DNA from: Mesorhizobium loti R88b
GTDB taxonomy: Bacteria; Pseudomonadota; Alphaproteobacteria; Rhizobiales; Rhizobiaceae
Direction of reading: 5' to 3'
Assembly: GCF_013170845.1 (NCBI RefSeq)
Contig: NZ_CP033367.1
Location: 62,001-126,000, forward strand
Length of the DNA: 64,000 nucleotides
The position numbers and the translations under genes were made by a program. This document shows, in pieces, positions 36,667 to 63,118 of this stretch. The notes beneath the pieces were generated by a model. The model was given only the letters and a program-made list of their open reading frames with translations. It did no database searches and had not been told where the DNA came from. Every line of letters begins with the position of its first letter. The stretch's first letter is position 1.

Positions 36667-38253
36667 TCAGTTGCCGGTTGCCGGACCCGATCCAAGCGTC
36701 GCCACCGTCTTCAGCGCGCCGTCGAGCATGTCGCCCTTTTCGTCCTTCAGCGCTGCTTCGCGCAGGCGGCGGATCCAGTCGGCGGCATCGTCACGGCCCT
36801 TGAGCATAGGGAGCGCCGACAGCACGCGGTCGAATTTCGACTGGGCGCGGACATGGGTGTCGCTGTAGCCCTTGATCAGCCGGCGGCAATTGAGGATTTC
36901 GACCGCCAGCGCATAGTCCTGGGGCACATATCCAAGTGCCAATGCATACCAGCGATCGACATGGGTCATCTCGACCTTGTGACGCAGCAGGCTGCGGCGC
37001 CAGCGGCGCAGGCCGCCGATGAACCACAAGGCCGCAAAGCCGGCGAAGCTGTCGGTGCGGATGCGGCGGCCATGGTTGATGCGGCGGTCGAGGAAGGCGG
37101 CAAGCTTGGGCCGCGCCTCGATGTAGCTGCCCAGCCCCGCCGGCAACGTGCCGCAGAATTCCTCGATGCGCGGATGGAAATATTCAGTCACCTGCAGGAT
37201 CGAGCCGTGCTTGACGCCGACCTCCTTGCGGACACGTTTGTCGCGCGTCGAACGCGTTTTCAGATCGGCAACGCGGATCATGTCGTCGTAGCAGAGCGCA
37301 TTGGCGAGATGCTTGGCGGCGGCGATGGACAGCGCATGGGCATGGTCGTCACCATCAAGCGCAACGGCCTTGTCCAGCCTGTCGAGATACTCCTGCCCAT
37401 AGACGATATCCTGATAGTCGACGACCTTCCGCAGGCCCCGCAGCGCAATGTCGCGGACCGCCAAAGGCATCAGGTCGATGCGGGCGGCGAGCGCCTGCCA
37501 TCCCTGCAGCAGGTTTTGCGGACCGCTGACGCGCCCTGCCCCCGGGGCGGATTCGACAATCGCCGGCTCTACCGGCTTTGGCGCAGGTGCGACCGTGCCG
37601 CGCGCGCGGTCGTAGGCGGCGCCGAAGGCGGCGAGGCTGGCCTTCACGCCCCGGCCGCCGGCTCCGATCGCCTGCTCGTAGCTTTCACGCGTGAACGGCA
37701 GTGCGTCGGAGCCGGCCAGTGCGCCGAGCAGGCTGGCCGAGATCATCGAGCCATTGTCGGCTGCGATCTTTTCCATGTCGAAGGCGATGAAGCGTTTCGA
37801 TGCGGCTACCGCCGTCGCATGCACCTTGGATGACGAGGCACGGCCGTCGCCCGGCTCGATCTTTTCCGACACGGCGGCAATGCGGTGCGAGGAAGCGATC
37901 AGCGTGGTGCGTTCCGGGGTGACGAAGCCCCTGATGATGGCGCGGCCGGCCTCCATCAATTCGGCGGCGATCAGGATGTCGACATCGCCTTGCGAGGGCG
38001 ACAGCGCGAAGACAGGCAACCGGCCGGTGTCGCGGGCCATTTCGATATAATAAATGGTGGCGCCGGTGCGCTGGGCGACGCCGGCGACCGAGGTCGACTG
38101 TGCGACGTAACCGTTGCGCTCGGCAACGTCGGTGATCCAGTCGGCCAGCACGCCGCCGCCCTGCCCGCCGACCGCCAGCACGGCGAGCTTGATGACGAGC
38201 TCGTCGTCCTGGGCGCCGGGCCGGGCGCGGAAGGGCGGGACAGCGTCAAGCAT
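36667..38253 (-). CDS. Indolepyruvate oxidoreductase subunit beta family protein (extended form)
   Basis: 528 residues. The N-terminal ~190 match the gamma-type domain of 2-oxoacid:acceptor oxidoreductases (LAVLAVGGQGGGVLADWI, AQRTGATIYYIEMA). The remaining ~330 residues form an extra domain not found in the ~200-residue archaeal IorB. It overlaps the alpha subunit gene by 8 nt. It would pair with that subunit to decarboxylate an aryl-pyruvate to the aryl-acetyl-CoA, with ferredoxin or another acceptor. Confidence 0.88.
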   Translation of the reverse strand: MLDAVPPFRARPGAQDDELVIKLAVLAVGGQGGGVLADWITDVAERNGYVAQSTSVAGVAQRTGATIYYIEMARDTGRLPVFALSPSQGDVDILIAAELMEAGRAIIRGFVTPERTTLIASSHRIAAVSEKIEPGDGRASSSKVHATAVAASKRFIAFDMEKIAADNGSMISASLLGALAGSDALPFTRESYEQAIGAGGRGVKASLAAFGAAYDRARGTVAPAPKPVEPAIVESAPGAGRVSGPQNLLQGWQALAARIDLMPLAVRDIALRGLRKVVDYQDIVYGQEYLDRLDKAVALDGDDHAHALSIAAAKHLANALCYDDMIRVADLKTRSTRDKRVRKEVGVKHGSILQVTEYFHPRIEEFCGTLPAGLGSYIEARPKLAAFLDRRINHGRRIRTDSFAGFAALWFIGGLRRWRRSLLRHKVEMTHVDRWYALALGYVPQDYALAVEILNCRRLIKGYSDTHVRAQSKFDRVLSALPMLKGRDDAADWIRRLREAALKDEKGDMLDGALKTVATLGSGPATGN

Positions 38254-40399
38254 CGGCGAAGGTCAGGCGCCGGCTTTCGCGGCGGCGCTGCAACAGGCCG
38301 ATGGTGGCGCGGCGCGCGGATTCCAGGAAGCGATCCCAGCGGCTCGGATTGTGCACGACGTCAGCGCGATAGAAGGACGGACACAGCACGGCAGCATCCG
38401 CGACCTCGCCGCAATTGCCGCAGCCGACGCAGCTCTGGTCTATGCTTGCGACGGGATCGTCGCGCAGCGGATCGTCGAGCGACTTCACCGACAGCGACGG
38501 GCAGCCGGACAGCCGCATGCAGGCATGGTCGCCGGTGCAGATGTCCTCGTCGACGCCGAACTTCGGTTTCACCACGCGCTCGCCGCCCTTTACCGCTTTG
38601 TCGACCAGCGGCTTTTCGCGGCGCTGGCGGTTGAGCATGCATTCGGACGAGGCGACGATGACCTTCGGCCCCTTCTCGTCGGTGGTCAGTGCCTCGCGCA
38701 GCGTGTCCTGCATCTTGGTCACGTCATAGGTGCGGTCGACATGGCGCAGCCATTTGACGCCCATGCCTTTGACCGCCTCGGTGATCGGATGCTTTGTCGA
38801 CTTGGTCTTGTTGCCCGCGCGCGATGATAGGATGTCCTGCCCGCCGGTCGCGGCCGAGTAGAAATTGTCGACGATGACGATGACGCCGTCATTCTTGTTG
38901 AACACCGCATTGCCGATCGAGGAGGTCAGGCCGTTGTGCCAGAAGCCGCCATCGCCGACGAAAGAGATCGAGCGGCGTTTGGCGTCGGGCGAATTGAACG
39001 CCGAAGCAGAAGCCGGCCCGAGTCCATAGCCCATTGTGGTGGCGCCGAGCTCGAAAGGCGGCATGATCGAGAACAGGTGGCAGCCAATGTCGGAGGCGAT
39101 GTGGTGTTTGCCGAGTTCCTGCTCGACCAGCTTTGTCGCGGCAAATATCGGCCGCTCCGGGCAACCGATGCAGAAGCCCGGCGGGCGGCCGGGCACGACG
39201 TTGATCAGATCAGCGATGTCGACGCCGTCGCCGACTTTGTTGGGCGCACGCACTTCGCCCGGCAAGAGATGCGGCGCCTCGGCGCGCAGGAAGGTGCCGA
39301 TGCCGTCGAGCATGACCTGGCCGGTATATTCGCCTGCCATCGGCAGATATTCCTTGCCGACCAGCCTGGTGCCGCGCCCGGCCTTATGCAGCATCGCGGC
39401 AAAGGCCTGCTCGATGTAGTTGGGCTGGCCTTCCTCGACGACAAGCACCGCCTGCTTGCCTTCGCAGAAGCTGAGGAACTCGTCGTCAATCAGGGGGTAG
39501 ACGGCGTTGAGCACGTAGAGCGGCACGTCGGTCTCGCCATAGGTGTCGGCAAGGCCGAGACGCTGCAAGGCGCGGATGACCGAATTGTACATGCCGCCCT
39601 GCATGACGATGCCGACCGAGCCATGATCCGAGCCGAAGAACTCATTGATCTTGTTCTTGGCGATGAACTCAACCGCCGCCGGCCAGCGCCTTTGCACCTT
39701 CTCCTTCTCGTGCAGGAAGGAGGCGGGTGGCAGCACGATGCGGCCGGTGTCGCGGCGCGGTGCGTCGAGCGCATCGGCCACCGTCATGGGCGGGCGTCTG
39801 TTGTCCTTGGCGATGAAATGGCCGTGGACGTGGCAACAGCGGATGCGCACCTGCAGCATGACCGGCGTGTTGGAAATCTCGGAGAGCTCGAAACCATCCT
39901 CCACCGCCTTGACGATCGACGGCAGGTTCGGGCGCGGGTCGAGCAGCCAGACCTGGCTCTTCATGGCAAAGGCGTGGCTGCGCTCCTGCATGATCGAGGA
40001 GCCCTCGCCATAGTCCTCGCCGACGATGATCAGCGCGCCGCCGGTGACGCCGCCGGAAGCGAGGTTGGCAAGCGCATCAGAGGCGACATTGGTGCCGACG
40101 GTCGATTTGAAGGTCGCGGCACCACGGATCGGGTAATGCACCGAGGCGGCGAGCATGGCGGTGGCGGTGGCTTCCGAGGCACTCGCCTCGAAATGCACGC
40201 CGAGCTCGCCCAGAATGTCCTGCGCGTCGGCCAACACGTCCATCAGATGGCTGATCGGCGCGCCCTGATAGCCGCCGACATAGCCGACGCCGCATTGCAG
40301 CAGCGCCTTGGTGATGGCGAGAATGCCCTCGCCGGCAAATTCCTCGCCGGCGCCGAGCCTGAGCTTTTCGACTTCCTTGGCAAAAGACCGTTCGGCCAT
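38246..40399 (-). CDS. Indolepyruvate ferredoxin oxidoreductase alpha subunit family protein
   Basis: 717 residues. The pyrimidine-binding domain is N-terminal. The TPP-binding segment GDGGFWHNGLTSSIGNAVF lies near 475-495, followed by GVIVIVDNFYSAATGGQD. A C-terminal ferredoxin-like part has a canonical CVGCGNCGE...LCP cluster (about 650-672) and an irregular first one (CTGDHACMRLSGCP). AAGGAG precedes the ATG. It lies 44 bp after the MarR gene. Likely substrates are indolepyruvate or other aryl-pyruvates. Confidence 0.9.
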   Translation of the reverse strand: MAERSFAKEVEKLRLGAGEEFAGEGILAITKALLQCGVGYVGGYQGAPISHLMDVLADAQDILGELGVHFEASASEATATAMLAASVHYPIRGAATFKSTVGTNVASDALANLASGGVTGGALIIVGEDYGEGSSIMQERSHAFAMKSQVWLLDPRPNLPSIVKAVEDGFELSEISNTPVMLQVRIRCCHVHGHFIAKDNRRPPMTVADALDAPRRDTGRIVLPPASFLHEKEKVQRRWPAAVEFIAKNKINEFFGSDHGSVGIVMQGGMYNSVIRALQRLGLADTYGETDVPLYVLNAVYPLIDDEFLSFCEGKQAVLVVEEGQPNYIEQAFAAMLHKAGRGTRLVGKEYLPMAGEYTGQVMLDGIGTFLRAEAPHLLPGEVRAPNKVGDGVDIADLINVVPGRPPGFCIGCPERPIFAATKLVEQELGKHHIASDIGCHLFSIMPPFELGATTMGYGLGPASASAFNSPDAKRRSISFVGDGGFWHNGLTSSIGNAVFNKNDGVIVIVDNFYSAATGGQDILSSRAGNKTKSTKHPITEAVKGMGVKWLRHVDRTYDVTKMQDTLREALTTDEKGPKVIVASSECMLNRQRREKPLVDKAVKGGERVVKPKFGVDEDICTGDHACMRLSGCPSLSVKSLDDPLRDDPVASIDQSCVGCGNCGEVADAAVLCPSFYRADVVHNPSRWDRFLESARRATIGLLQRRRESRRLTFADA

Positions 40400-40443: not shown

Positions 40444-40926
40444 CTAGATGTCGTGCTTGCGAATGTTCTTGAGCATCTTCAGAAGCGTGGCGATCAGGGC
40501 TGCGTATTCGGCATCGTCGATATCCTCGAACATCGCCTCGAAGGCGTCATGCATGGCCGGCCAGGCGCGGGTGAATTCGGCGCGGCCTTCGTCGGTCAGG
40601 AAGACATGGCGGATGCGGCTGTCGGTGACGCCCTGTTCGCGCCGCACGAAGCCTTGCCCCTCCAGCGTGTCGAGCGTGCGGCTCAAGGTCGACTGCTCGA
40701 TGACGGTGTAGACCGAGAGATCATTGACGGTGACGCCATCGGCGACCGAAAGGACCGCAAGAGTACGCACCTGCGGAATGGTCAGCCCCTGTTTGCGGAA
40801 ATCGTCACGCAAGGTGGCGTTGTAGCGGCCCATGATGCGGTTCATCAGATAGGGCGCGAATTGCTGCAGGCCGATCTGCCCCAGGGTTGAAATGCGCTGA
40901 CGCTTCTCCGCGACCTTCTGTTCCAT
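40444..40926 (-). CDS. MarR family transcriptional regulator (island regulator 1)
   Basis: 160 residues with a winged helix-turn-helix: LTIPQVRTLAVLSVADGVTV, then VIEQSTLSRTLDTLEGQGFV as recognition helix, then the wing RREQGVTDSRIRHVFLT. The start at 40926 overlaps the stop of the FAD oxidoreductase gene (TGATG), so it is translated within that operon. MarR proteins of aromatic catabolism usually repress until bound by a pathway ligand. The palindrome at 43457-43470 in the operon promoter is the natural candidate operator. Confidence 0.92.
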   Translation of the reverse strand: MEQKVAEKRQRISTLGQIGLQQFAPYLMNRIMGRYNATLRDDFRKQGLTIPQVRTLAVLSVADGVTVNDLSVYTVIEQSTLSRTLDTLEGQGFVRREQGVTDSRIRHVFLTDEGRAEFTRAWPAMHDAFEAMFEDIDDAEYAALIATLLKMLKNIRKHDI

Positions 40927-42497
40927 CACAGCCTCCCCGCCAGCAGGAAGCCGGAACCGCCGCCGAGGCCGGCACCCGGATGGGTCGAGGCGCCGATATG
41001 GTAGAGGTTTTTGATGCCGGTCTGGTGGTTGCGACTGGTCTTGAACGGCCGCCACAGGAACGACTGGTCGATGGTCGAGGAGCCGCCATAGGGGTCGCCG
41101 CCGACCAGATTGATGTTCATCTTTTCGAGATCGGCCGGCGAATAGGCGCGCCGTGCAATGAGACTGTCCTTGAAGCCGTCGATATGGCTGGCGAGGATTG
41201 CTTCGACGCGATCGGCATAGGCCTCGCGCAATGCGTCGGTCCATTGTCCGTCAGCGGGAACCTGCAGCTTGCCAGCTGCGTCGCCTTTGATATGGCGCGG
41301 CGCCTCGGGCAGTTGCAGCCACAGGATCGCCTTGCCCTCCGGACAGCGTGACGGGTCAAGCGCATGCGGCTGTCCGACACAGATGGTGGGCACCTCCGGC
41401 AGCATGCCGCGTACCGCTTCGTTGCAGGCTTTCGAAACGCCATCCAAACCAGGCGTCAGGTGCAGCAACGCGACCTTGTCCAGGCCTTCGCCGCGCCAGG
41501 ACGGCGGCTTGTTCAGCGCATAGTGGATCTGGAAATTACTTTTGCCGTAGCGGTATTTCCGCGTTGCTTCGACATCGGCTTTTGGAGCATCCGCGCCGAG
41601 CAGTCTGCCGTAAAGCTGCGTCGGCGTGACCGAGCAGATGACGCTCTTGTTGGCCGCGATGGTCTCGCCGGATGCCAGCCGCACGCCTGTCGCGCGGCCA
41701 TCGCTCTGGACAATCGAGGCGACATCGGCACCGGTGCGGATGTCGCCGCCACGTTCCCGGATCAGGGCTTCGAAGGCGGCAAGCAGGTTCTTCGCCCCGC
41801 CCTTGACGATCGGCGCTCCGGCCGCCTCGAGCGCGAAGGCAATGACCTTGGCGATCTGGCCGGAGAAGGCATCCTCGGGCCCAAGCCCGGCATGCAGCAC
41901 CCAGGGCGCCCACAGCGCGCGGATGGTTTCGGACTGGTAGGTGCTTTCCAGCCAGCCACGCGCCGGCACCAGCGCTTCGCCGAGAAAGGCGGCAAGGCCA
42001 CGCGGGCCACGCCGCCAGGCGTCGCCGGCCAGCAGCTTCGCTGTGGGATAAGACCACAGGCTGCCGCCGAGCAGACCGAACAGCAGGCCGGCATTGCGTT
42101 CGATGCCGCCGACATCGTCCGCGTGCCTATCGCCATCGCCGGCGGCGAACGCGTTGAGGGCGGCGATATTGGCGGCGCGGTTCGTGCTAAGCACGGCATG
42201 GCTGCCGTCCGGCCGCAGCACGCCGGTCGGCGTGCCGGTGTGGCAGAACTCCAGCCCGTGCCGGGCCAGATCGCCGCCCAATGCCGCAAAGGCAGGCGAG
42301 GTGATGAACAGCACGAAGGTCGTCGCCATCACATCATGGATGAAGCCGGGCGCGGTGACCTCCTCGGTGCGCATGCAACCGCCGATGCGGTCGTTGCGCT
42401 CAAGCACGAGCACCTTCGCGCCCTTGCCGCCGAGCATCGCCGCGCAGACCAGCGCGTTGATGCCGCTGCCGACGATGATGTGATCCGGCTGGCTCAC
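40926..42497 (-). CDS. NAD(P)/FAD-dependent oxidoreductase, phytoene-desaturase-like (copy 1)
   Basis: 523 residues. The FAD Rossmann motif VGSGINALVCAAMLGGKG is at the N-terminus, followed by VLERNDRIGG. The C-terminal FAD motif is HIGASTHPGAGLGGGSGF. The substrate is not evident. A GTG at 42497 is the start. It is a clear paralogue of the divergent gene at 43487. It lies between the isatin-hydrolase-like gene (78 bp upstream, with a palindromic repeat between) and MarR (overlap). Confidence 0.88.
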   Translation of the reverse strand: MSQPDHIIVGSGINALVCAAMLGGKGAKVLVLERNDRIGGCMRTEEVTAPGFIHDVMATTFVLFITSPAFAALGGDLARHGLEFCHTGTPTGVLRPDGSHAVLSTNRAANIAALNAFAAGDGDRHADDVGGIERNAGLLFGLLGGSLWSYPTAKLLAGDAWRRGPRGLAAFLGEALVPARGWLESTYQSETIRALWAPWVLHAGLGPEDAFSGQIAKVIAFALEAAGAPIVKGGAKNLLAAFEALIRERGGDIRTGADVASIVQSDGRATGVRLASGETIAANKSVICSVTPTQLYGRLLGADAPKADVEATRKYRYGKSNFQIHYALNKPPSWRGEGLDKVALLHLTPGLDGVSKACNEAVRGMLPEVPTICVGQPHALDPSRCPEGKAILWLQLPEAPRHIKGDAAGKLQVPADGQWTDALREAYADRVEAILASHIDGFKDSLIARRAYSPADLEKMNINLVGGDPYGGSSTIDQSFLWRPFKTSRNHQTGIKNLYHIGASTHPGAGLGGGSGFLLAGRL

Positions 42498-42533: not shown

Positions 42534-42584
42534 CGAGCATGATCTTCTCCGAAAACCGGCACCCACTTTTCGGGATCATGCTCG
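42534..42584. repeat. Rhizobial palindromic repeat
   Basis: CGAGCATGATC (42534-42544) and GATCATGCTCG (42574-42584) are perfect inverted arms around an inner imperfect CCGAAAA...CTTTTCGG pair. This element is, as I recall, very common between genes in Mesorhizobium and Bradyrhizobium. The right arm supplies the last codons and the TGA of the cyclase gene. Confidence 0.85.
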
Positions 42585-43367
42585 GGAAACCAGCGCCAGC
42601 GCGCGGATCGGGCTGCCGGTGCCGTGCTCGATCTTGAGCGGCGCCGCGATCAGGATCGCGCCCTTCGGCGGCAGCTGGTCGAGGTTGCAGAGGCTGGCCA
42701 GGCCATAGCGGTTGGCCTTGTGCATCAGCGTGTGCGCCGGGAAGGGCGGCTCCATGCCGCCGGCCTTGCCGGCATCGGTGCCGATCGTCTCCGAGCCCCA
42801 GCCCTTGATGTCCTTGCTGATCAGGAACTGGATGGCTTCAGCCGTCGGGCCGGGCGTGTGCGGGCCGGTCTCGTTGGCGTTGAGGAACTCGGCTTCCGAG
42901 CCGTTGCGCTTGTACCAGTCGGTGCGCATCACCACCCACTCGCCGGCGTTGATCGCGCCATGCTTGGCTTCCCATGCCTTGATATGGTCGACGGTGAGCA
43001 GGAAATCATGGTCGGCGGCGGCTTCCGCGGAGCAGTCGATGACATTAACCGGGCCGACGAAGTTCTGCACCGGAATGGTGTCGGTGGCGCCGTCCGGATA
43101 ATCCTTGCCGCTGATCCAGTGCTGCGGCGCATCGAAATGTGTGCCCGAATGCTCGCCAAGCTTCAGCCAGTTCCAGGCCCACCACGGGCCGTTCTTGTCA
43201 TAGCGCGAGATGTTGTGGATCTCGACCTTCGGCGTGTCCACGGCAAGCTCCGGCGGCAGCTTGATCAGGGGCGTATCGGGACCGAGCGGCGCGGACAGGT
43301 CGACCACCTTGATGGCGCCTGAAAGCAGCTGGCCGGCAACTTCGCCGAGGAGTTTTTGAGTGTCCAT
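42576..43367 (-). CDS. Cyclase family metal-dependent hydrolase, isatin-hydrolase-like
   Basis: 263 residues. The cyclase/kynurenine-formamidase signature is H73-S-G-T-H77-F-D79-A-P-Q-H83, the metal and catalytic site. The sequence fits isatin hydrolases (WWAWNWLKLGEHSGTHFDAP, GWGSETIGTDAG, PPFPAHTLMHKA), which open isatin to isatinate with Mn2+. Kynurenine formamidase is usually shorter and less similar. The ATG at 43367 is chosen over an in-frame start at 43400. First gene of the leftward island operon. The stop codon comes from a palindromic repeat. Confidence 0.85.
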   Translation of the reverse strand: MDTQKLLGEVAGQLLSGAIKVVDLSAPLGPDTPLIKLPPELAVDTPKVEIHNISRYDKNGPWWAWNWLKLGEHSGTHFDAPQHWISGKDYPDGATDTIPVQNFVGPVNVIDCSAEAAADHDFLLTVDHIKAWEAKHGAINAGEWVVMRTDWYKRNGSEAEFLNANETGPHTPGPTAEAIQFLISKDIKGWGSETIGTDAGKAGGMEPPFPAHTLMHKANRYGLASLCNLDQLPPKGAILIAAPLKIEHGTGSPIRALALVSRA

Positions 43368-43456
43368 TGTCTCTGTTCCCTCTTTGTCAGTGATGATCAA
43401 GGCTCGTCTCGGCCCTTAATATCCTACTAGACGAAAACATATGCATCTGCAATTAT

Positions 43457-43470
43457 CTTTAAGCATAAAG
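43457..43470. promoter_or_regulatory. Candidate MarR operator D in divergent promoter
   Basis: CTTTAAG-CATAAAG, a 14-bp inverted repeat with one mismatched pair, in the 119-bp gap between the leftward cyclase operon and the rightward FAD-oxidoreductase/ABC operon, 16 bp before the latter's GTG. It shares the pattern YTTYAAG-CNTRAAR with three other sites in the island. Confidence 0.6.
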
Positions 43471-43486: not shown

Positions 43487-45061
43487 GTGAGCGAGTTCGA
43501 CGCCATCTTTGTCGGGGCGGGCCACAACAGTCTGGCATGCGCCGCGCATCTGACGCTCAAAGGCTGGAAAACCGGGATTTTCGAGCGCAGTGCAACAATC
43601 GGCGGCGCCGTCCAGACCGGCGAATTCACCCTTCCAGGCTTCCGCCACGATTTCGGTGCGATGAATCTGAGCCTGTTTGCCGGCTCTGCCTTCCACCGGA
43701 AATATGCAAATGAATTGAAAGCGCAGGGTCTGGAGTTCGCGCCTGTCGCCGATTGTTTCGCCAGCGCCTTCCCGGATGGACGCTGGTTCGGCGTCAGCAA
43801 CGATCTGGAAAAAACCGCGACGCGCATGGCCGCGTTTTCAGCCACCGATGCCGCGACATGGCGCAAGCTGGTTGCCGCTTTTCCGGCCGAGGCCGAGCAT
43901 CTGTTCCGGCTGCTAGGCTCGCCAATGAGCGCCCGTGCGCTTGCCGGCACCGCCTGGAACCTGTGGCGCAAGAAGGGCATGTCCGGCACGCTCGACACCG
44001 GCCGGCTTTTGCTGTCCTCACCCCGCGCATGGCTGGAGGAAAATTTCGAGTCGCCCCACGTGCGGGCGACGCTCGCCACCTGGGGCATGCATCTCGACTT
44101 CGCCCCTGACATCGCCGGCGGTGCCGTGTTCCCCTATCTGGAATCGATGGCCAACCAGAGCTTTGGCATGGTGCTGGGCAAGGGTGGCGCTGACACCATC
44201 ATTCGTGCGCTGTCGGGCATGGTCACCTCGGCCGGCGGCAAGATCGTCACCGGCGCCGACGTGGTGGAAATCACCGTTTCCGCTGGCAAGGCGACCGGGG
44301 TGCGGCTCGCGTCCGGTGAGACGCATACGGCGACCAAGGCGGTCATCGCCGGTGTTGCGCCCAAGGCACTGACTGGGAAGTTGCTGGCCAACGGTTCCGG
44401 CGACGTCGGTTTCGATACGGCGATGCAAAAATTCCGCCATGCGCCGGGCACGATGATGATCCACCTGGCGATCGACGATTTACCCGACTGGCGCGCCGGA
44501 GCAGAGTTGCGGCAGTTCGCCTATGTGCATCTGTCGCCGTCGCTCGATGCGATGTCTCGCACCTACCAGCAGGCGATGGCGGGCATGCTGCCGGACGAGC
44601 CGGTGCTGGTCGTCGGCCAGCCCTCGGCGATCGATCCGTCGCGCGCGCCTCAGGGCAAGCATGTGCTGTGGGTGCAGGTGCGCATGCTGCCCGCCGAAAT
44701 CCTGGGCGATGCGGCCGGCAAGATCGCGCCCGCGCATTGGGATCAGGCCAAGGACACCTACGCTGACCGTGTCCTCGACATCATCGAGACCTATGCGCCG
44801 GGCCTGCGCGCGAAAATCCTTGGCCGTTCGGTGTTCTCACCCATCGACCTCGAGCGAGAGAACCCGAACCTCGTCGGTGGCGACCAGGTCTGCGGCAGCC
44901 ATCATCTGGCGCAGAACTTCTTGTTCCGCCCGGCGCGCGGCTATGCCGGCTGGAACACGCCGGTCGCCAATCTGCATCTCACAGGGGCCGCGACATGGCC
45001 GGGCGCCGGCACCGGTGCGGCCTCCGGCTTCATGCTCGCGCAACAGCTTGGCGGAGGGTAG
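43487..45061 (+). CDS. NAD(P)/FAD-dependent oxidoreductase, phytoene-desaturase-like (copy 2)
   Basis: 524 residues, paralogue of the gene at 40926-42497 with the same length and layout. The FAD motif VGAGHNSLACAAHLTLKG is N-terminal and the C-terminal motif is LTGAATWPGAGTGAASGF. The GTG start at 43487 follows AAGGAAATGGGAACGGGG. The two copies sit on either side of the divergent promoter and may act as partners or on successive substrates. Confidence 0.88.
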   Translation: MSEFDAIFVGAGHNSLACAAHLTLKGWKTGIFERSATIGGAVQTGEFTLPGFRHDFGAMNLSLFAGSAFHRKYANELKAQGLEFAPVADCFASAFPDGRWFGVSNDLEKTATRMAAFSATDAATWRKLVAAFPAEAEHLFRLLGSPMSARALAGTAWNLWRKKGMSGTLDTGRLLLSSPRAWLEENFESPHVRATLATWGMHLDFAPDIAGGAVFPYLESMANQSFGMVLGKGGADTIIRALSGMVTSAGGKIVTGADVVEITVSAGKATGVRLASGETHTATKAVIAGVAPKALTGKLLANGSGDVGFDTAMQKFRHAPGTMMIHLAIDDLPDWRAGAELRQFAYVHLSPSLDAMSRTYQQAMAGMLPDEPVLVVGQPSAIDPSRAPQGKHVLWVQVRMLPAEILGDAAGKIAPAHWDQAKDTYADRVLDIIETYAPGLRAKILGRSVFSPIDLERENPNLVGGDQVCGSHHLAQNFLFRPARGYAGWNTPVANLHLTGAATWPGAGTGAASGFMLAQQLGGG

Positions 45062-45171: not shown

Positions 45172-46701
45172 ATGACAATCAACAGACGCGAATTGCTGGG
45201 ATACAGTGCCGCGGCACTTGGGGTGGCCGCAGTCGGCCTGCCACAGATCGCCAAGGCGGCGGCTGGCGAACTGACCATCGCCTACAACGTCAACCTGCCG
45301 TCCTGGGATCCGACCACCGGACCCTCGGCGGTGAACCCGACGATCCAGGGTCTTTACCAATCGGTGTTCGACCAGTTCATCCCACAGAAGCCGGACCTCT
45401 CCTTCGCGCCGGGCCTGCTCACCGAATGGGGCTGGAACGACGACCGCACCAAGGTGATGATGACGGTGCGCGAAGGCGTGAAATGGCATGACGGCTCACC
45501 GTTCACGCCCGAGGATGTGGTCTGGTCGCTGCAGCGGGCAGGCGACGAAAAGACCGGCAACCCGATCCAGTTCGTCTGGAAGAACGTCAACAATTTCAAG
45601 ATCGACGGCAATAAGATCACGGGCGATGTCGTTCAGTTCGACCCGGTCTATTTCAAATGGATGTCGTTCCTGACCGGCTACATCCTGCCCAAGGCCTATT
45701 ACGAGAAGGTCGGCGCCGAAGGCTTCGAGAAGGCGCCGATCGGCACCGGTCCGTATATGGTGGAAAAATTCGAGCGCAACGCCTTCCTGCGGCTGAAGGC
45801 CAATCCGACCTACTGGGGCGGCAAGCCGGCCTTCGAGAATGTGACGATCAAGTTCGTCACCGACGCGGCGAGCCGCGTCGCCGAAATCGAATCCGGTTCC
45901 TCGCAGGTGACGCTCGAGATCCCCTATGAGGAATACGACCGCCTGATCGCCAAGGACGGGCTGGCCGGCTCGTGCAAGAACGTCTCCGACATCGGCATGA
46001 TCTTCTTCAACAACAAGGACGCCATGCTGGACAAGAATGTCCGCCAGGCAGCCGTGATGGCGGTGGACAAGGAGCTTCTGGTCAAGCGGTTGCTGCGCGG
46101 CTACGGCCAGCCGATCGCGACGCTGGAAACGCCGGAATACGCCGCCTACGATCCGTCGATCAAGGTTGAGCACAATCCGAAGAAGGCCAAGGAATTGCTG
46201 GCGGCCTCCGGCTACTCACCGGAGAAGCCGGCCAAGATCACCATCCAGACCACCAAGGGCTTCAAGCCCAAGGACTACGAGATGGTGCAGGCGATCGTCG
46301 GCATGTGGCGCAAAGTCGGCATCGAGGCGACGATCGAAGTCTACGAGATCGCCAAGCATTACGAACTGCGCGCCGCCCACAAGCTGGCACCGGCGGCCTT
46401 CTACAACTGGGGCAATGCCATCGGCGATCCGACCACGTCGACCGGCTTCGCCATGTTCGGGCCGTCGCCGCACTCGTCGTGGAAGACCGACGACCTCGAT
46501 GCCAAGATCGGGCCGCTGTGGGGCGAGAAGGACGAAGCCAAGCGCATTGCCGGCTGGAAGGCCGTCGACAAATACATCGCCGAGCAGGCCTACGTGCTGC
46601 CGGTGCTGCAGTTCGCACAGCCGGTCGTGCATGCCAAGGGCGTCAAGGTGGTGCAGCATCTTTCCGGCGCGCTGCTGCCGGCGCTGATGACCCCGGCCTG
46701 A
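45172..46701 (+). CDS. ABC transporter substrate-binding protein, family 5
   Basis: 509 residues. Signal peptide about 1-30; the N-terminus NRRELLGYSAAALGVAA is Tat-like. Family segments are VKWHDGSPFTPEDVVWSL and GTGPYMVEKFERN. First gene of a complete peptide/nickel/opine-type importer. In this setting it probably captures the island's growth substrate or a conjugate of it; the ligand cannot be read from sequence. Confidence 0.93.
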   Translation: MTINRRELLGYSAAALGVAAVGLPQIAKAAAGELTIAYNVNLPSWDPTTGPSAVNPTIQGLYQSVFDQFIPQKPDLSFAPGLLTEWGWNDDRTKVMMTVREGVKWHDGSPFTPEDVVWSLQRAGDEKTGNPIQFVWKNVNNFKIDGNKITGDVVQFDPVYFKWMSFLTGYILPKAYYEKVGAEGFEKAPIGTGPYMVEKFERNAFLRLKANPTYWGGKPAFENVTIKFVTDAASRVAEIESGSSQVTLEIPYEEYDRLIAKDGLAGSCKNVSDIGMIFFNNKDAMLDKNVRQAAVMAVDKELLVKRLLRGYGQPIATLETPEYAAYDPSIKVEHNPKKAKELLAASGYSPEKPAKITIQTTKGFKPKDYEMVQAIVGMWRKVGIEATIEVYEIAKHYELRAAHKLAPAAFYNWGNAIGDPTTSTGFAMFGPSPHSSWKTDDLDAKIGPLWGEKDEAKRIAGWKAVDKYIAEQAYVLPVLQFAQPVVHAKGVKVVQHLSGALLPALMTPA

Positions 46702-51095: not shown

Positions 51096-51109
51096 CTTTA
51101 AGCTTGAAA
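51096..51109. promoter_or_regulatory. Candidate MarR operator A
   Basis: CTTTAAG-CTTGAAA, imperfect 14-bp palindrome with the AAGCTT core, 57 bp upstream of the aryl-CoA monooxygenase/reductase start. Same pattern as sites B, C and D. Confidence 0.6.
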
Positions 51110-51166
51110 TATCTTGTCGCCGGCGCGATACTCGAAGATGCAGCAAGCGAAGAGGAGATCGCAGAC

Positions 51167-54231: not shown

Positions 54232-54695
54232 CCGGCCCCCTGCCCGCGCCGTCGGGACCCGGCAAGGACCGCCTGCGCCTGTGGATCAGGTTGCTGCGTG
54301 CATCGCGCACGATCGAGGCCGAGCTGCGCGAGCGCTTGAAGAGGGACTTCGATACGACACTGCCGCGCTTCGATGTGATGGCCGCCCTCTATCGCGTGCC
54401 GGACGGCATGCTGATGAGCGACCTGTCGCGCTTCCTGCTGGTGTCCAACGGCAATGTCACCGGCATTGTCGACCGGCTGGTTTCGGAAGGGCTTGTGGCA
54501 CGCGCGCGCCGCAATGGCGACCGCCGCACCTCCATGGTGCGGCTGACGGATGAAGGCTCGAAATCCTTCGCCGTTATCGCTGCGGCACATGAGGGCTGGA
54601 TCGGTGAATTGCTGGGCAAGGTCAGCGAGGACGATGCGCGCCGGCTGACCGGCATGCTGACCTCGTTCCGCAGCAACTGGGAGGGACGCGAATGA
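54225..54695 (+). CDS. MarR family transcriptional regulator (island regulator 2)
   Basis: 156 residues with the winged-helix segment [46 protein letters not shown] and the wing [16 protein letters not shown]. It is co-translated with the SDR and the crotonase (overlaps at both ends). Sites A, B and C may be its targets. It is only distantly similar to the MarR protein at 40444. Confidence 0.92.
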
Positions 54696-55504
54696 CAGGG
54701 ATGGCCGGGCTCAAGCCGAAGCATTTCATGTGGGAGGTCGAGGGCAGGATCGCCAAGGTCCGGCTCGACCGGCCGGAACGCAAGAACCCGCTGACCTTCG
54801 ACAGCTATGCGGAACTCCGCGACACATTTCGCGACCTCGTCTACGCCGACGATGTCGACGCCGTGGTGTTCCTCTCGAATGGCGGCAATTTCTGCTCTGG
54901 CGGTGACGTCCACGACATCATCGGGCCGCTGGTCAAGATGGACATGAAGCAGCTCCTGGCCTTCACCCGTATGACCGGCGATTTCGTCAAGGCGATGCTG
55001 AATTGCGGCAAGCCGATCATCGCGGCGGTGGACGGCGTAGCGGTCGGCGCCGGCGCCATCATCGCCATGAGCTCCGATATCCGCATCGCCACGCCCGAAG
55101 CCAAGACCGCTTTCCTGTTCACCCGCGTCGGTCTCGCCGGCTGCGACATGGGCGCCTGCGCGATCCTGCCGCGCATCATCGGCCAAGGCCGCGCCGCCGA
55201 ACTGCTGTACACCGGCCGCACCATGACGGCAGCGGAAGGCGAGCGCTGGGGTTTCTACAACCGGCTGGTCGATGCCGCGGCACTGGAGGCCGACGCGCTC
55301 GATGTGGCGGCGCGCATCGTCTCCGGCCCGACTTTCGCCCACGGCATCACGAAGACGCAGCTCAATCAGGAATGGTCGATGGGGTTGGATCAGGCGATCG
55401 AGGCCGAAGCCCAGGCGCAAGCGATCTGCATGCAGACGCGCGATTTCGAGCGGGCGTACAGGGCGTTCGTGGCGAAGGAAAAGCCGGTGTTCGAGGGGAA
55501 TTGA
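54692..55504 (+). CDS. Enoyl-CoA hydratase/isomerase (crotonase) family protein
   Basis: 270 residues. Oxyanion-hole segments are [11 protein letters not shown] (63-73) and [10 protein letters not shown] (113-122). The two Glu residues of classical enoyl-CoA hydratase are replaced (Ile123 and the FLFTRV stretch at 141-146), while Asp152 sits in GLAGCDMG, where dienoyl-CoA isomerase has its catalytic Asp. So an isomerase, hydrolase or lyase role on a cyclic acyl-CoA is as likely as hydration. It overlaps the MarR stop (ATGA). Confidence 0.85.
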
Positions 55505-55521: not shown

Positions 55522-55689
55522 CCAGGCACCCACCTCTGGCCTGCCGGCCATCTCCCCCGCAAGGGGGGAGATCGGCTGTATATTTTGTTTTCGCCAATCT
55601 CCAACGATGCAAGGTGGAAGCCGACGGCACGGCTGCCAATCTCCCCCCTTGCGGGGGAGATGTCCGGCAGGACAGAGGGGGGTGCCTGG
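55522..55689. repeat. Inverted-repeat intergenic element (RIME/MITE-like)
   Basis: About 168 bp with near-perfect inverted arms: 55522-55576 and 55632-55689. The outer ends are CCAGGCACC and GGTGCCTGG. Each arm carries its own small palindrome, ATCTCCCCC...GGGGGAGAT. Arms of this type are frequent between rhizobial genes. It separates the crotonase gene from the acyl-CoA dehydrogenase gene, ending 19 bp before the latter's ATG. No protein gene inside. Confidence 0.85.
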
Positions 55690-55708
55690 CACCTGGAAGG
55701 TCACCTTC

Positions 55709-56857
55709 ATGCCTGACCGCTCCTTCCTCTCCTGGCCCTTCTTCGAAGACCGCCATCGCCAGCTCGCCGATCAACTGGAATCCTGGTGCGCGAAAAACCT
55801 CCCCGTCGATCACCACGACGTCGATGCCGCCTGCCGCGAGCTGGTGGCGAAGCTTGGCCGCGACGGCTGGCTGAAGCCGACAGCGCTCGACACCGACAAT
55901 CCTGGCCCCCTCGACGTGCGCACTCTGTGCATCACGCGCGAGACACTCGCCCGCCATGATGGGCTGGCCGATTTCGCCTTTGCCATGCAAGGGCTCGGCA
56001 CCGGCGCGCTCAGCCTGTTCGGCACGCCGCAGCAGCAGCAATGGCTGACCAAGACGCGCGCCGGCACGGCGATCTCCGCCTTCGCTTTGTCGGAGCCTCG
56101 GTCCGGGTCGGATGTCGCCAACACCGAGATGACGGCGACCCGCGACGGCGACAGCTATGTGCTCACCGGCGAAAAGACCTGGATCTCCAATGGCGGCATT
56201 GCCGACCTCTACATCGTCTTTGCCCGTACCGGCGAGGGGCCGGGCGCCAAGGGGCTTTCCGCCTTTCTCGTGCCTGGCGATGCCAGTGGCCTCGGCATTG
56301 CCGAGCGTCTCGAAGTGATCGCGCCGCATCCGCTGGCGCGGCTGTCTTTCGACAAGGTCCGGCTGCCGGCCGCCGCACTGGTCGGCAAGCCTGGTGACGG
56401 CTTTCGTATCGCCATGTCGGTGCTCGACGTGTTCCGCTCGACCGTCGGCGCGGCGGCACTCGGCTTTGCCCGCCGGGCGCTCGATGAAAGCATCAAACGG
56501 GTGGCCGAGCGAAAGCTGTTCGGCGCGCCGATGGGCGAGTTGCAGATGGTACAGGGCCATATCGCCGACATGGCTCTCGACGTCGACGCGGCAGCCCTGT
56601 TGGTCTACCGAGCGGCCTGGACCAAGGACATGGGTGCGGCGCGGGTAACACGCGAGGCGGCGATGGCCAAGCTGTTCGCCACCGACAAGGCGCAGGAGGT
56701 GATCGATAAGGCCGTGCAGCTGCATGGCGGCGACGGCGTTCGCAAAGGCCACATCGTCGAGAGTCTGTATCGCGAGATCCGCGCGCTGCGCATCTATGAG
56801 GGTGCCTCCGACGTGCAGAAGGTGGTCATCGCGCGACAAGTGATGGGCGCGGCCTGA
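55709..56857 (+). CDS. Acyl-CoA dehydrogenase family protein
   Basis: 382-residue flavoenzyme. Signatures are [16 protein letters not shown] and [15 protein letters not shown] (FAD/substrate loop), [35 protein letters not shown] (C-terminal motif with the catalytic Glu in IYEG). The substrate is probably a CoA ester of the island pathway. The ATG at 55709 lies just outside the repeat; a longer frame reads through repeat sequence and is rejected. Confidence 0.92.
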
Positions 56858-59701: not shown

Positions 59702-60499
59702 ATGAAGCTCAACCGTCGCAATCTCATCCTGTTCGCCGCCGCCATCGGCATCGCCGCCGGCCCTGCCACCGCTTACGCCGCCGATGTGCTGAATGTCGGC
59801 GCCTACCCGACCAATCCGCCCTTCGAGTACAAGAACGAGAGCGGCACCTTCGAGGGCTTTGAAGTCGACATCGTCAACGAAGCGGCCAAGCGCATCGGCA
59901 TGACCACCGACATTGCCGACCTCGGTTTCCAGGCGCTGTTCGCCGCTGTCAGCTCGAAGCGCATCGATGTTGCCATCTCGTCGATCACCATCACGCCGGA
60001 GCGGCTGAAATCGCTGTCGTTTACCCAGCCCTATTATGATTCCGACATGGGCATCGCGACGAAGACCGACAGCGCTGTCAACACCGAGGCCGACCTCAAG
60101 GGCAAGGTCGTCGGCGTGCTGTCCGGCTCGACCGGCGAGACCTGGGTCAAGGCGCATCAGGAGGCTGACGGCTACAGCGACGTGAAAGGCTACGACACGC
60201 AGCAGAATCTTCTGCTCGACCTGAGCGCCGGCCGCGTCGACGCCGCCGTCAGCGACATTCCTGGCATGCAGTACTCCTTCACCAAGATGAAGGATCTCAC
60301 CGTCAAGCAGCGCATCAAGACCGGCGAACAGTACGGCCTGATGCTGAGCAAGGACCATCCGCTGCTCGGCAAGCTGAACGACGCGCTGAGCGCGATGAAG
60401 AAGGACGGCACGCTGGCCGCGATCCACAAGAAGTGGTTCGGCAGCGACGCGCCGGCCGACTCGTCGACCGTCAAGGAAATGCCGCTGCCGAAGGCCTGA
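59702..60499 (+). CDS. Amino acid-type ABC substrate-binding protein, family 3
   Basis: 265 residues. Signal peptide about 1-28 ending AYAA. The family 3 pattern is VGAYPTNPPFEYKNESGTFEGFEVDI, with DLGFQALFAAVSSKRIDVAIS and FTQPYYDSDMGIA. It binds a polar amino acid or amino-acid-like compound, possibly an amino-acid conjugate used by the island. A downstream hairpin separates it from its permease. Confidence 0.93.
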   Translation: MKLNRRNLILFAAAIGIAAGPATAYAADVLNVGAYPTNPPFEYKNESGTFEGFEVDIVNEAAKRIGMTTDIADLGFQALFAAVSSKRIDVAISSITITPERLKSLSFTQPYYDSDMGIATKTDSAVNTEADLKGKVVGVLSGSTGETWVKAHQEADGYSDVKGYDTQQNLLLDLSAGRVDAAVSDIPGMQYSFTKMKDLTVKQRIKTGEQYGLMLSKDHPLLGKLNDALSAMKKDGTLAAIHKKWFGSDAPADSSTVKEMPLPKA

Positions 60500-60520
60500 G
60501 CGACACTCCGCGCTGAGATC

Positions 60521-60543
60521 GTGCCGGCTTTGCAGGCCGGCAC
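60521..60543 (+). promoter_or_regulatory. Intra-operon hairpin between binding protein and permease
   Basis: GTGCCGGC / GCCGGCAC, an 8-bp stem with a 7-nt loop and GTTTCATTT after it, 21 bp past the binding-protein stop. It probably limits read-through to, or stabilises the message before, the permease gene. Confidence 0.65.
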
Positions 60544-60657
60544 GTTTCATTTCATGCACCAGCGGCGACGGTTTTTCGCAAAGAGCGCTCCGCGCTCGGC
60601 GCAGCATACTGGTTTTAACTTGAGCACCCTTTTGCTCCAGGGTTCGGGAACGCTCCC

Positions 60658-61332
60658 ATGTCGCTGATCGACACCTTCTTCAATCCCGATGTCATCATGT
60701 CCAGCCTGCCGGCGCTGCTGCGCGGTTTCCTGAACACGCTGCTGCTCGGCATACTGAGCATCGGCATCGGTATCCCCATCGGCCTGGGGATCAGCCTGGT
60801 GCGGCTCTACGCGCCGAAGCCGCTGCGGTGGCTGGCGGTGGGCTACACCGACATCTTTCGCGCGCTGCCGGTGCTGGTGGTGCTGATCCTGATCTACTAC
60901 GCGCTGCCGTTTCTCGGCATACGCCTGTCGTCCTGGGCCTCGGCGGTGACTGCGTTCGCTTTCATCATGTCAGCCTATTCGGCCGAAGTGTTCCGCTCCG
61001 GCATTGAGAGTATTCCGAAAGGCCAGTTCGAGGCGTCGCAGGCGCTCGGCCTGCCGTTCCTTTTGACCTTGCGCAAAGTGGTGCTGCCGCAAGCGATCCG
61101 CGTGGTCATCCCGCCGATGACCAGCAACTGCGTTTCGATGTTCAAGGACACCTCGCTCGCCTCTACCGTGGCACTGCCGGAACTCTTGAAGGAGGCGACC
61201 AACGCGCAGTCGCTCTACGCCAACCCCTCGCCGCTGATCGGCGCCGCACTTGTCTATCTCATCTTCCTCTGGCCGATGGTCCGCCTCGTCAGCCTGCTTG
61301 AAGACCGCTTCAAGACCGAAAAGACGCGCTGA
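60658..61332 (+). CDS. Amino acid ABC transporter permease, HisM/GlnP type
   Basis: 224 residues, about five membrane helices. The EAA coupling loop is EASQALGLPFLLTLRKVVLPQAI and the family GYTDIFRALPVLVVLILIYYALP segment is present. Only this one permease is seen, so it probably forms a homodimer. No matching ATP-binding gene follows; the ATPase at 63145 is of the oligopeptide class and on the other strand. Confidence 0.93.
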   Translation: MSLIDTFFNPDVIMSSLPALLRGFLNTLLLGILSIGIGIPIGLGISLVRLYAPKPLRWLAVGYTDIFRALPVLVVLILIYYALPFLGIRLSSWASAVTAFAFIMSAYSAEVFRSGIESIPKGQFEASQALGLPFLLTLRKVVLPQAIRVVIPPMTSNCVSMFKDTSLASTVALPELLKEATNAQSLYANPSPLIGAALVYLIFLWPMVRLVSLLEDRFKTEKTR

Positions 61333-61374: not shown

Positions 61375-62640
61375 TTGAGCAATCCCCAGACCGCCGCCGG
61401 CGACTTCCCGGTTGCCACCATCCGCGCCATGTTCCCTGCCCTCCAGCGGGCCGGCGATTTCATCTTCCTGGACAACGCCGCCGGCGCGCAGATCCCGCAG
61501 AGCGTGCTCGACGCGGTGACCAACCATCTGGTTTCGCACAATGTGCAACGCGGTGGCCGCTATGGCCGGAGCGTCACCGTCGACCAGTCGGTCGCCGACG
61601 CGCGGACAAGCGTAGCGCTGCTGATCAACGCCTACAGCCCGGCGGAAATCTGCTTCGGCATGAACGCCACCTCGTTCATCCGCTTGGTCAGCCTCGGCAT
61701 CGGCCAGATGCTTTCTGAGCGCGACGAGATCGTCATCACAGACATGGACCATGACGCCAACATCGCCACCTGGCTGGCGCTGGAATCCGCCGGCGCCAAG
61801 TTCAAGTGGTGGCGCATGCGCGACGACGGCAATCTGCATGTCGACGATCTGCGCCCGCTGGTTTCCGACCGGACCCGCCTCGTCGCCTGCACGGTGACGG
61901 CGCATTCGATCGGCTCGATCGTCGATGTCGCGTCGGTGGCTGACATCGCGCACGACGCCGGGGCCGAAGTGTTCCTCGACTGCGTGCACTACGGACCGCA
62001 CGGGCTGATCGACGTGCAGGCCTGGGATTGCGACTACCTCGTCTGCTCCGGCTACAAGAATTTCTCGCCGCATATGGGTTTTCTGTGGGGCCGCTTCGAA
62101 ACGCTGAAGCGGCTGCCGACCTTCCGCGAGGACTTCATCCCGAACGAGCCGCCCTACAAGGTCGAGGCCGGCACCTTCATCTACGAGAACGTGTCGGGCA
62201 TGGATGCGGCCGTGCAGTACCTGGAACTGATCGGCCGCAATCTTGCGCCCTCCAACAACCGCTCTCGGCGCGAAAACATCGTCGCCGGCATGGGCGCCAT
62301 TCGTGACTACGAGCTGGTGCTGGCGCGCGAGATGCTTGGCGTGCTGAAAGACTGCGGCGCGACCATCTATGGCGTTGCCGACGAGGCGCGCATCAACGAA
62401 CGCGTGCCGACCTTCTGCTTCAACATCGGCAAGCTCTCACCGCAACGGATCGTCGAGGAAATGGCCGAGATGCAGATCGGCATCCGTGATGGCCACATGT
62501 ACGCGCCACGGCTGATGAAGCGCCTCAATTTGTCGATGGACAGCGGCGCCATCCGCGCCTCGCTTGTGCATTACAACACGGTCGAGGAGATCCGCCGTTT
62601 CGGCGATGCGCTGCGCGCCATCATCGCCAAGCTGTCGTGA
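61375..62640 (+). CDS. Cysteine-desulfurase-like PLP-dependent enzyme
   Basis: 421 residues, class V aminotransferase fold ([20 protein letters not shown] at the N-terminus; [12 protein letters not shown] with the PLP Asp; [16 protein letters not shown] with the PLP Lys). No Cys is visible in the loop where true cysteine desulfurases have their catalytic residue. A desulfurase role is therefore doubtful; a lyase, epimerase or kynureninase-like C-C or C-N cleavage is possible. The TTG start at 61375 follows GGAGACCACCC. The stop is 1 bp from the GNAT ATG. Confidence 0.85.
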
Positions 62641-62641
62641 C

Positions 62642-63118
62642 ATGACTGGTCCTGGCGGCACCGATGATCCGGACACGGATGGGGCAACGCCTCTGGTTGT
62701 CCTCAGCGACCCCACGCCAGACGATATCGTCGCGCTCGAGGACCAGCTCTACGGCTTCAACGTTGCCGCGACCGGCATCGATGACGGCCGCTATTTGTCG
62801 ATCTTCCTGAAGAGGGACGACGGCACGATCTATGCCGGTCTCCACGGGCACAGTTGGGCGGGCGTTTGCGAGATCAAGACGCTATGGATCGCCGACAGCG
62901 AGCGGGGCAAAGGCCTCGGCTCGCGCCTCCTTGCAGCCGCAGAACAGGAGGCGCGGCTGCGTGGGTGCCATGTCGTCCATCTCGCGTCCTTCACCTTCCA
63001 GGCGCCGGACTTCTATGAGAAGCATGGATTTCAGCGGCTGGTGCAGCTTGAGGACTTTCCGCGCGGTCACGCCAATGTCCTGCTTGCAAAGACACTGGTG
63101 CCGGAGCCACCAGTTTAG
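62642..63118 (+). CDS. GNAT family N-acetyltransferase
   Basis: 158 residues. The acetyl-CoA motif A is in CEIKTLWIADSERGKGLGSRLLAAAEQEA (R-G-K-G-L-G), followed by FTFQAPDFYEKHGFQRL, the usual motif B. The ATG at 62642 is one base after the PLP-enzyme stop, so both are co-translated. The substrate is not predictable; acylation of an amine from the pathway is one possibility. Confidence 0.88.
   Translation: MTGPGGTDDPDTDGATPLVVLSDPTPDDIVALEDQLYGFNVAATGIDDGRYLSIFLKRDDGTIYAGLHGHSWAGVCEIKTLWIADSERGKGLGSRLLAAAEQEARLRGCHVVHLASFTFQAPDFYEKHGFQRLVQLEDFPRGHANVLLAKTLVPEPPV

Follow-up and report, generated by a model that had tools for sequence, protein, structure and literature searches.

A Mesorhizobium gene island that may channel isatin into aerobic 2-aminobenzoyl-CoA degradation

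We analyzed a 64,000-nucleotide stretch (G000:C1:62001-126000, hereafter the window) of a 7.2 Mb single-contig genome (G000) of Mesorhizobium, a root-nodule bacterium, and propose that the catabolic island at window positions 36667-63118 funnels isatin into the aerobic pathway of 2-aminobenzoyl-coenzyme A (CoA), in which isatin would be opened to isatinate, isatinate converted to 2-aminobenzoyl-CoA, and the ring of the latter dearomatized. We place the probability of this reading at about 0.55. The original prediction had described an island for the breakdown of indole or auxin through isatin and anthranilate; its single linked pathway, leading from the level of isatin and anthranilate to CoA intermediates, is retained here, and auxin as the substrate is not. 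The genes it named, two importers and two MarR regulators included, are all intact frames lying at, or very near, where it had placed them, but two oxidoreductases dependent on flavin adenine dinucleotide (FAD), FADox1 (40926-42497) and FADox2 (43487-45061), had been overlooked.

In the proposed route, an indolic or oxindole compound would enter through an SBP5-Dpp importer and would be oxidized to isatin by FADox1, perhaps with FADox2 acting earlier, the simplest such reaction being dioxindole to isatin. The isatin hydrolase is predicted to open isatin to isatinate. As the central claim, the two-subunit enzyme IorAB would use thiamine diphosphate and CoA to turn isatinate into 2-aminobenzoyl-CoA and CO2, so that the route would need neither ATP nor an aryl-CoA ligase. 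A fused monooxygenase/reductase would then dearomatize 2-aminobenzoyl-CoA, with the SDR dehydrogenase, crotonase and acyl-CoA dehydrogenase expected from their families to process the ring by beta-oxidation-type steps, and MarR1 and MarR2 may each control one half of the island. Strong homology underlies the hydrolase and monooxygenase steps, and comparative genomics together with chemistry underlies the IorAB step; substrate entry and isatin formation are the steps that we infer. A wider proposition, held tentatively and at slightly less than even odds, is that IorAB here and IadAB in auxin (iad) loci are both isatinate:acceptor oxidoreductases that acylate CoA, that isatin and iad routes end in 2-aminobenzoyl-CoA made without ATP or ligase, that the free anthranilate and C7H7NO of constructs without iadAB are side products of isatinate, and that FADox1 is an isatin-forming dioxindole oxidase.

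Isatin hydrolase and the conserved island

The cyclase gene (42576..43367 on the minus strand when started at Met12; the longest frame reaches 43400) encodes a protein whose strong homology identifies it as an isatin hydrolase of the B type. It matched isatin hydrolase B of Labrenzia (4j0n) over residues 13-274 with an E-value of 9e-128, and the A-type isatin hydrolases with E-values of 1e-92 to 1e-89 (1.5e-92 for 5nnb). The manganese-binding H-x3-H-x-D motif is kept as HSGTHFD, and the H73/H77/D79 metal site named in the original prediction is exact when counted from Met12; in the longest frame the residues are numbered H84, H88 and D90. Isatinate is 2-aminophenylglyoxylate, an aryl 2-oxo acid. 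It is also the reported product of isatin hydrolase (PMC6117287).

Two gene runs diverge from the gap between the hydrolase and FADox2. Leftward, on the minus strand, the order is isatin hydrolase, FADox1 (40926..42497), MarR1 (40444..40926), IorA (38246..40399) and IorB (36667..38253). As a single operon would lead one to expect, the FADox1 stop and the MarR1 ATG share bases (TGATG), and the IorA and IorB frames have 8 bases in common. Rightward, on the plus strand, lie FADox2 (43487..45061), the SBP5-Dpp importer (45172-50345), a VOC protein, the fused monooxygenase/reductase (51104..53461), the SDR dehydrogenase (53380..54231), MarR2 (54225..54695), a crotonase-family hydratase (54692..55504; NF006107, 479.8 bits against a cut-off of 330) and an acyl-CoA dehydrogenase (55607..56857; PF00441). 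The real starts of the SDR and acyl-CoA dehydrogenase genes are probably downstream of the frame starts given here.

The locus comparison used the best 80 of 232 cyclase relatives, 76 of which are from Mesorhizobium. All twelve core genes are present at 70% identity or more in 66 of the 67 loci of this set that span at least 20 kb; the lone exception (L061) lacks only the monooxygenase, within the available stretch. The island is a conserved metabolic unit, beyond chance. Of thirteen genes compared, IorA and the hydrolase rank highest in conservation (mean identities of 96.1% and 95.6%), and IorB comes last at 87.3%. A block in the divergent gap (43412..43470) is more conserved still: in an alignment of 81 sequences, 49 of its 59 columns do not vary (mean 99.7%), compared with 92-94% for the flanking coding sequence and 75% for nearby spacer. 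This block is probably a promoter/operator, and a simple palindrome search of the hydrolase-FADox2 gap found no operator. A 217-residue minus-strand frame at 43459-44112, antisense to FADox2 and without a family match, was rejected as a gene and dropped from the synteny queries. Among 24 sampled Mesorhizobium genomes, the monooxygenase was found at 91% identity or more in 16 and at 52-55% in three, with none in five; the island is widespread in the genus but does not occur in all its members.

IorAB and the origin of the CoA ester

IorB carries a 2-oxoacid oxidoreductase gamma domain (PF01558) and DUF6537 (PF20169), and passes the model for the beta family of indolepyruvate oxidoreductase (NF006179) with 705.7 bits against a cut-off of 348. 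IorA combines a thiamine diphosphate domain (PF02775) with a C-terminal ferredoxin-like stretch whose Fer4 match lies under its cut-off. There is precedent for chemistry of the proposed kind in the conversion of phenylglyoxylate to benzoyl-CoA, and in the formation of phenylacetyl-CoA from phenylpyruvate by IorAB (PMC9765128).

Co-occurrence was scored in a phylum sample of 398 genomes, with the hydrolase called present at E ≤1e-60, the monooxygenase at E ≤1e-180, and close-type IorB defined by an identity of at least 44% across most of the protein (distant or partial matches in G451, G106, G465, G490, G294 and G589 were left out). The hydrolase was found in 25 genomes, close-type IorB in 24 and both in 23, counts that are inflated by shared ancestry. 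The monooxygenase is present in all 23 genomes with both, and in 69 of the 398 overall. Close-type IorB occurs in 13 of the 15 genera that have the hydrolase.

Such co-occurrence favors the IorAB route, and so does gene order on plasmids. In eight of the ten hydrolase regions examined (L108-L117, from 57 plasmid records with a match), IorA and IorB follow the hydrolase (L108-L114, L117), with a MarR gene between the hydrolase and this pair in seven; the remaining two (L115, L116) lack IorAB. A minimal unit of hydrolase, MarR, IorA and IorB stands alone, with no other indole genes, in Paracoccus sp. SMMA_5_TC (L110) and Sulfitobacter faviae (L112). Nine further regions (L174-L182) were chosen by IorB, from 51 plasmid records with a match; IorAB is accompanied by the monooxygenase in three of them, from Azospirillum (L174), Caballeronia (L178) and Tsukamurella (L182), and not in L175-L177 or L179-L181. 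The Tsukamurella plasmid, from an actinobacterium, adds the hydrolase and two FAD oxidoreductases. IorA-IorB and the monooxygenase also stand together in L192 and L193. A thioesterase gene follows IorB in L175, L176, L178, L180, L188, L192 and L193, which fits a CoA-ester product.

From 49 IorA sequences collected, two fragments shorter than 500 residues (L192 and L205, 70% and 71% identical to the window protein) were dropped, and the remaining 47 rows separated into groups of 37 and 10 with support of 100/100. The 37-row clade consists of loci linked to the hydrolase, the monooxygenase, an iad-like cluster or the thioesterase, plus L202, which has none of these in its stretch; the ten rows outside it come from other contexts. 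The L205 fragment, outside the tree, has neither hydrolase nor monooxygenase in its stretch. The window IorA shares its clade with copies from iad-like clusters (L186, L189-L191), the comparison being with these copies rather than with published iadA sequences.

The fused flavin monooxygenase/OYE reductase, of the 2-aminobenzoyl-CoA monooxygenase/reductase type, scores 1260 bits against NF006101 (cut-off 1078), a model that NCBI names salicylyl-CoA 5-hydroxylase/oxidoreductase, so the match does not settle the substrate. Our searches found no ABM-type ligase in the window, and neither an oxygenase nor an ABM-type ligase of the reference types in window 1-36.7 kb or in the two flanks (L235, L236). 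Two AMP-binding frames were rejected as aryl-CoA ligases. The first, 4.6 kb past the window end (L235), belongs with the long-chain fatty acid ligases (NF005463, 1032.8 bits against a cut-off of 869); the second, at window 32992-36411, encodes an acyl-ACP phospholipid acyltransferase. The original prediction that an aryl-CoA ligase is missing holds for the window and fails for the genome, where a benzoate-CoA-ligase-type gene exists.

That gene opens a series of observations that weigh against isatinate being the direct source of the CoA ester. The ABM-type (benzoate-CoA-ligase) homologue of G000 is 48% identical and lies at 4.43 Mb, 4.3 Mb from the island. A kynureninase gene is 0.9 kb away (TIGR01814, 374 bits, cut-off 246), and between the two is a tryptophan 2,3-dioxygenase gene (TIGR03036, 428 bits, cut-off 391) whose frame call overlaps the ligase; the three genes stand in a row at 7016-11007 of L239 (G000:C1:4425001-4445000). 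With such a ligase next to genes for tryptophan dioxygenase and kynureninase, G000 is probably able to activate anthranilate, and the arrangement suggests a second feeder in the same genome, in which tryptophan would reach 2-aminobenzoyl-CoA by way of kynurenine and anthranilate. ABM-type ligases were found in six of the ten Mesorhizobium genomes searched. A ligase is often present as well in islands that have the hydrolase, IorAB and the monooxygenase, that of G642 (L201) included, and iad clusters have a thiolase and a ligase beside IorAB, which are themselves a possible source of the CoA ester. The hydrolase occurs without IorB in G583 and G496 and IorB without the hydrolase in G521, and partial close-type IorB matches occur in two genomes that lack the hydrolase, G294 (L205; 52%, 261 residues) and G589 (56%, 124 residues). 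Nine of the 23 genomes with both hydrolase and IorB belong to one genus, and Fisher p-values on such counts overstate the case. Finally, a Variovorax construct carrying iadC-K2 without iadAB restores anthranilic acid (preprint PMC12633357).

A contrast between monooxygenase loci with a ligase and those with IorAB also failed. Twelve loci lack IorAB (L210, L217-L222, L243, L246, L248, L252, L253; L237 was left out as it repeats the genome of L217), and nine of them hold an ABM-type ligase, the others being L210, L246 and L253. Of 13 loci with both monooxygenase and IorAB (L109, L113, L174, L178, L182-L184, L187, L192, L193, L196, L209, L213), two (L109, L182) have the ligase within their own stretch; the adjoining stretches L257, L266 and L259, beside L183, L184 and L209 (G454, G457 and G587), raise this to at least five, and the adjoining pieces of L192 and L193 hold none. 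The resulting difference (9/12 versus at least 5/13, Fisher p 0.11) is not significant and comes from stretches of 8-29 kb in loci chosen by match rank rather than at random, with adjoining pieces searched for five of the 13. This failure lowered our confidence both in the IorAB route and in the wider proposition on IadAB.

These same data bear on an account that we consider somewhat unlikely, in which oxidation or decarboxylation of isatinate yields free anthranilate, the course described for B. japonicum and Variovorax, and a ligase then activates the anthranilate, with IorAB as an accessory. The iad route is described as IAA (indole-3-acetic acid) to isatin, isatinic acid and anthranilic acid, the last two of which have been detected in Variovorax (PMC9613470). 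To this may be added the restoration of anthranilate by iadC-K2 alone, the ligase type in at least five of the 13 loci just described, and its presence elsewhere in G000. One study reports assays of anthranilate-CoA ligases, along with a putative monooxygenase (PMC3534580). Against free anthranilate stand three Mesorhizobium genomes, G004, G010 and G014, that carry the island (hydrolase, IorAB, FAD pair and monooxygenase) and whose best genome-wide match to an ABM-type ligase is 33-35% identical; the pathway there cannot use a ligase of this type, more distant ligases being possible. The presence of close-type IorB in 23 of the 25 genomes with the hydrolase likewise counts against this account. 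In the preprint, C8H7NO3 and C7H7NO build up only in strains overexpressing the iadC-K2 region (PMC12633357), and C8H7NO3 was identified as isatinic acid in another strain (PMC8383072); isatinic acid and 2-aminobenzaldehyde, respectively, would fit these compounds in the iadC-K2 constructs. The main text of the preprint does not mention iadA or iadB, and the passages of iad literature that we examined describe no role for either. Within the openly available passages that our literature search covered, no paper was found joining isatinate to 2-aminobenzoyl-CoA. Further background is given in PMC6221969 and PMC11630574.

The original prediction grouped the IorAB genes as indolepyruvate-type, and a true indolepyruvate oxidoreductase feeding indoleacetyl-CoA at the top of the pathway, with another enzyme handling isatinate, is the reading their family label would favor. 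It has the phenylpyruvate precedent (PMC9765128) on its side, as well as the occurrence of iorAB in iad clusters (PMC9613470). We regard it as unlikely. The equivalog models for indolepyruvate ferredoxin oxidoreductase are missed by wide margins (TIGR03336, 273 versus 651 bits; TIGR03334, 40.7 versus 206), the linked IorA proteins group in a clade apart, and the minimal units of L110 and L112 carry no other indole genes. Moreover, we see no way in which indoleacetyl-CoA would lead to isatin, and G000 yielded no full-length iad-type Rieske or IadH-like gene (see below). Isatinate is the IorAB substrate that agrees better with gene order, co-occurrence and the tree, although these do not prove it.

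Two of the IorB plasmid regions have other surroundings. On a Delftia acidovorans plasmid (L181), a distant iorAB occurs with a maleylacetate reductase gene and a protocatechuate-dioxygenase-type gene, and iorA is repeated across an IS1071 transposase. On a Variovorax boronicumulans plasmid (L179), iorAB adjoins genes for an alpha-hydroxy acid oxidase and an enolase-family protein, possibly a mandelate-type route through an aryl-glyoxylate, although both NCBIfam matches are below cut-off.

The FAD oxidoreductases and the upstream substrate

FADox1 and FADox2 are paralogues about 40% identical to each other. Both pass the Pfam amine-oxidase cut-off (PF01593 for FADox1), and their resemblance is to the CrtO/phytoene-desaturase type, with scores below every cut-off shown for the CrtO, CrtI and phytoene-desaturase NCBIfam models. 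In a tree of 31 rows (without the FADox2 of L109, which is split, and without a second FAD gene in L182 that the search did not recover), the FADox1 clade includes single FAD genes next to an indole monooxygenase and a hydrolase in L115, L241 and L242, and the FADox2 copies form a separate clade; the deep placing of L182, L113 and L201 is unsure, as their branches are long and the program warns of false joins. L115 is from Azospirillum, with an FAD gene 70% identical, and L241 and L242 are from genomes outside the class. L109 and L212 likewise have an indole monooxygenase in the vicinity of the hydrolase. Because its clade members adjoin indole monooxygenase and hydrolase genes, we propose FADox1 to act between ring oxygenation and isatin hydrolysis, and it probably forms isatin.

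Of the 398 genomes, 14 have the FAD enzyme, and 12 of these have both copies. One FAD copy sits beside the hydrolase in G484 and G553, where IorAB and the monooxygenase are together on another contig. A similar division is seen in Azospirillum thermophilum, where one plasmid carries the indole monooxygenase, FAD enzyme and hydrolase, and another carries IorAB and the monooxygenase. In Alloyangia pacifica (L109, 20644-22166), the FADox2 match is split over two frames, and no gene is listed there.

To examine the upstream substrate, we searched G000 and four other Mesorhizobium genomes, with positive controls, using a Rieske alpha subunit (L108, iad-like by context), an IadH-like dehydrogenase (L108, by its position after the thiolase) and an indole monooxygenase (L109) as queries. 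The best Rieske match in G000 was 30% identical over residues 22-220 of 441 (controls, 66% in a genome and 82% on a plasmid), no IadH-like dehydrogenase was matched at 1e-20 (controls, 46% and 55%), and no indole monooxygenase at 1e-5 (controls, 64-65%). The best solved relatives of MarR1 are 3cjn, followed by 7kym, the latter among the structures of PMC9613470. In MarR_73, the three residues Ser28, His32 and Arg46 are reported to hold the IAA carboxylate (PMC9613470), and only the Arg46 equivalent seems kept in MarR1 (by eye, from an alignment with 3cdh and a motif match). The degradation of IAA by an iad-type route, suggested by the IorAB, cyclase and MarR types common to the island and iad loci, is highly improbable given the partial Rieske match, the absent IadH-like gene and a MarR1 in which one ligand of three seems kept; auxin was rejected as the substrate on the first two of these grounds.

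Neighbouring genes and comparison with known systems

The importer of the rightward run comprises an SBP5 solute-binding protein (45172..46701; PF00496) and DppB-, DppC-, DppD- and DppF-like permeases and ATPases (46793..50345). The VOC-family protein that follows (50346..51023; PF00903) has an N-terminus resembling a signal peptide (by eye), an odd placing for this fold; a VOC gene also adjoins MarR1/IorA in L113, L183 and L184. A 23-base near-palindrome occurs in two exact, inverted-orientation copies (55550-55572 and 55639-55661) between the crotonase and acyl-CoA dehydrogenase genes, with no further copies in the window at up to three mismatches, and looks like a small dispersed repeat.

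Beyond the acyl-CoA dehydrogenase are a luciferase-like monooxygenase on the opposite strand (57321-58442, minus; syntenic) and, on the plus strand, an HpaI-type aldolase (58532-59299; syntenic), an amino-acid-type importer with SBP3 and permease genes (59702..61332), and genes for a cysteine-desulfurase-like pyridoxal phosphate protein and a GNAT acetyltransferase (61375..63118; TIGR01976, 597.6 bits, cut-off 352). The genes from the acyl-CoA dehydrogenase to the cysteine-desulfurase-like protein are all kept in five of six genomes with a close island. In G004 (L262), the luciferase-like and HpaI genes are absent beside an otherwise similar island, so both are probably dispensable for it. The divergent island of G454 lacks the last right-hand gene (cysteine-desulfurase-like), and no right-hand gene was seen past the acyl-CoA dehydrogenase in G587, from another genus. 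The amino-acid-type importer also adjoins hydrolase/IorAB genes in L187 and L201.

If iadA/iadB oxidize isatinate to 2-aminobenzoyl-CoA, the accepted end point of a plant-microbe auxin pathway would no longer be anthranilate but the CoA ester of anthranilate, a mislabelled pair of enzymes (iadA/iadB, IorAB) would gain a function, and an island found in 16 of 24 sampled Mesorhizobium genomes would gain a defined substrate class. It would also represent an ATP-free entry from an aryl-glyoxylate into an oxygen-using aryl-CoA pathway.

Several known systems share parts of this arrangement. Relatives of the FADox1-hydrolase pair stand beside an indole monooxygenase and an SDR gene in L109, L115, L212, L241 and L242, in the manner of the iif/ipo-dho indole clusters; in the iif system, IifA and IifB lead to anthranilate and isatin is seen as a dead end (PMC12538310), and, unlike these clusters, G000 has no indole monooxygenase that our search could find. 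The window hydrolase shares its sequence and manganese motif with the Labrenzia aggregata isatin hydrolases A and B (PMC6117287), and we noticed no clear difference in the alignment. The iad loci of Variovorax, Bradyrhizobium and Achromobacter have in common with the island the IorAB homologues (iadA/iadB, used as exclusive marker genes; PMC9613470), an isatin-hydrolase-like cyclase and a MarR regulator, and isatin and isatinic acid are intermediates there (PMC9613470, PMC12633357), as proposed for the island. In contrast to these loci, the island has two FAD oxidoreductases, a different importer and a lower pathway, in a genome without a full-length Rieske or IadH-like gene.

The clusters of Azoarcus and Arthrobacter Rue61a for an anthranilate-CoA ligase and 2-aminobenzoyl-CoA monooxygenase/reductase share with the island the fused monooxygenase, SDR, MarR, crotonase and acyl-CoA dehydrogenase genes. 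Unlike them, the window island has IorAB and an isatin hydrolase and no ligase; some related islands have both. The phenylglyoxylate enzyme of Aromatoleum is a multi-subunit enzyme of other make-up and is anaerobic. Its reaction, from phenylglyoxylate to benzoyl-CoA, is likewise a conversion of an aryl 2-oxo acid into an aryl-CoA (PMC9765128), whereas the island would pair an IorAB-type enzyme with an oxygen-using pathway.

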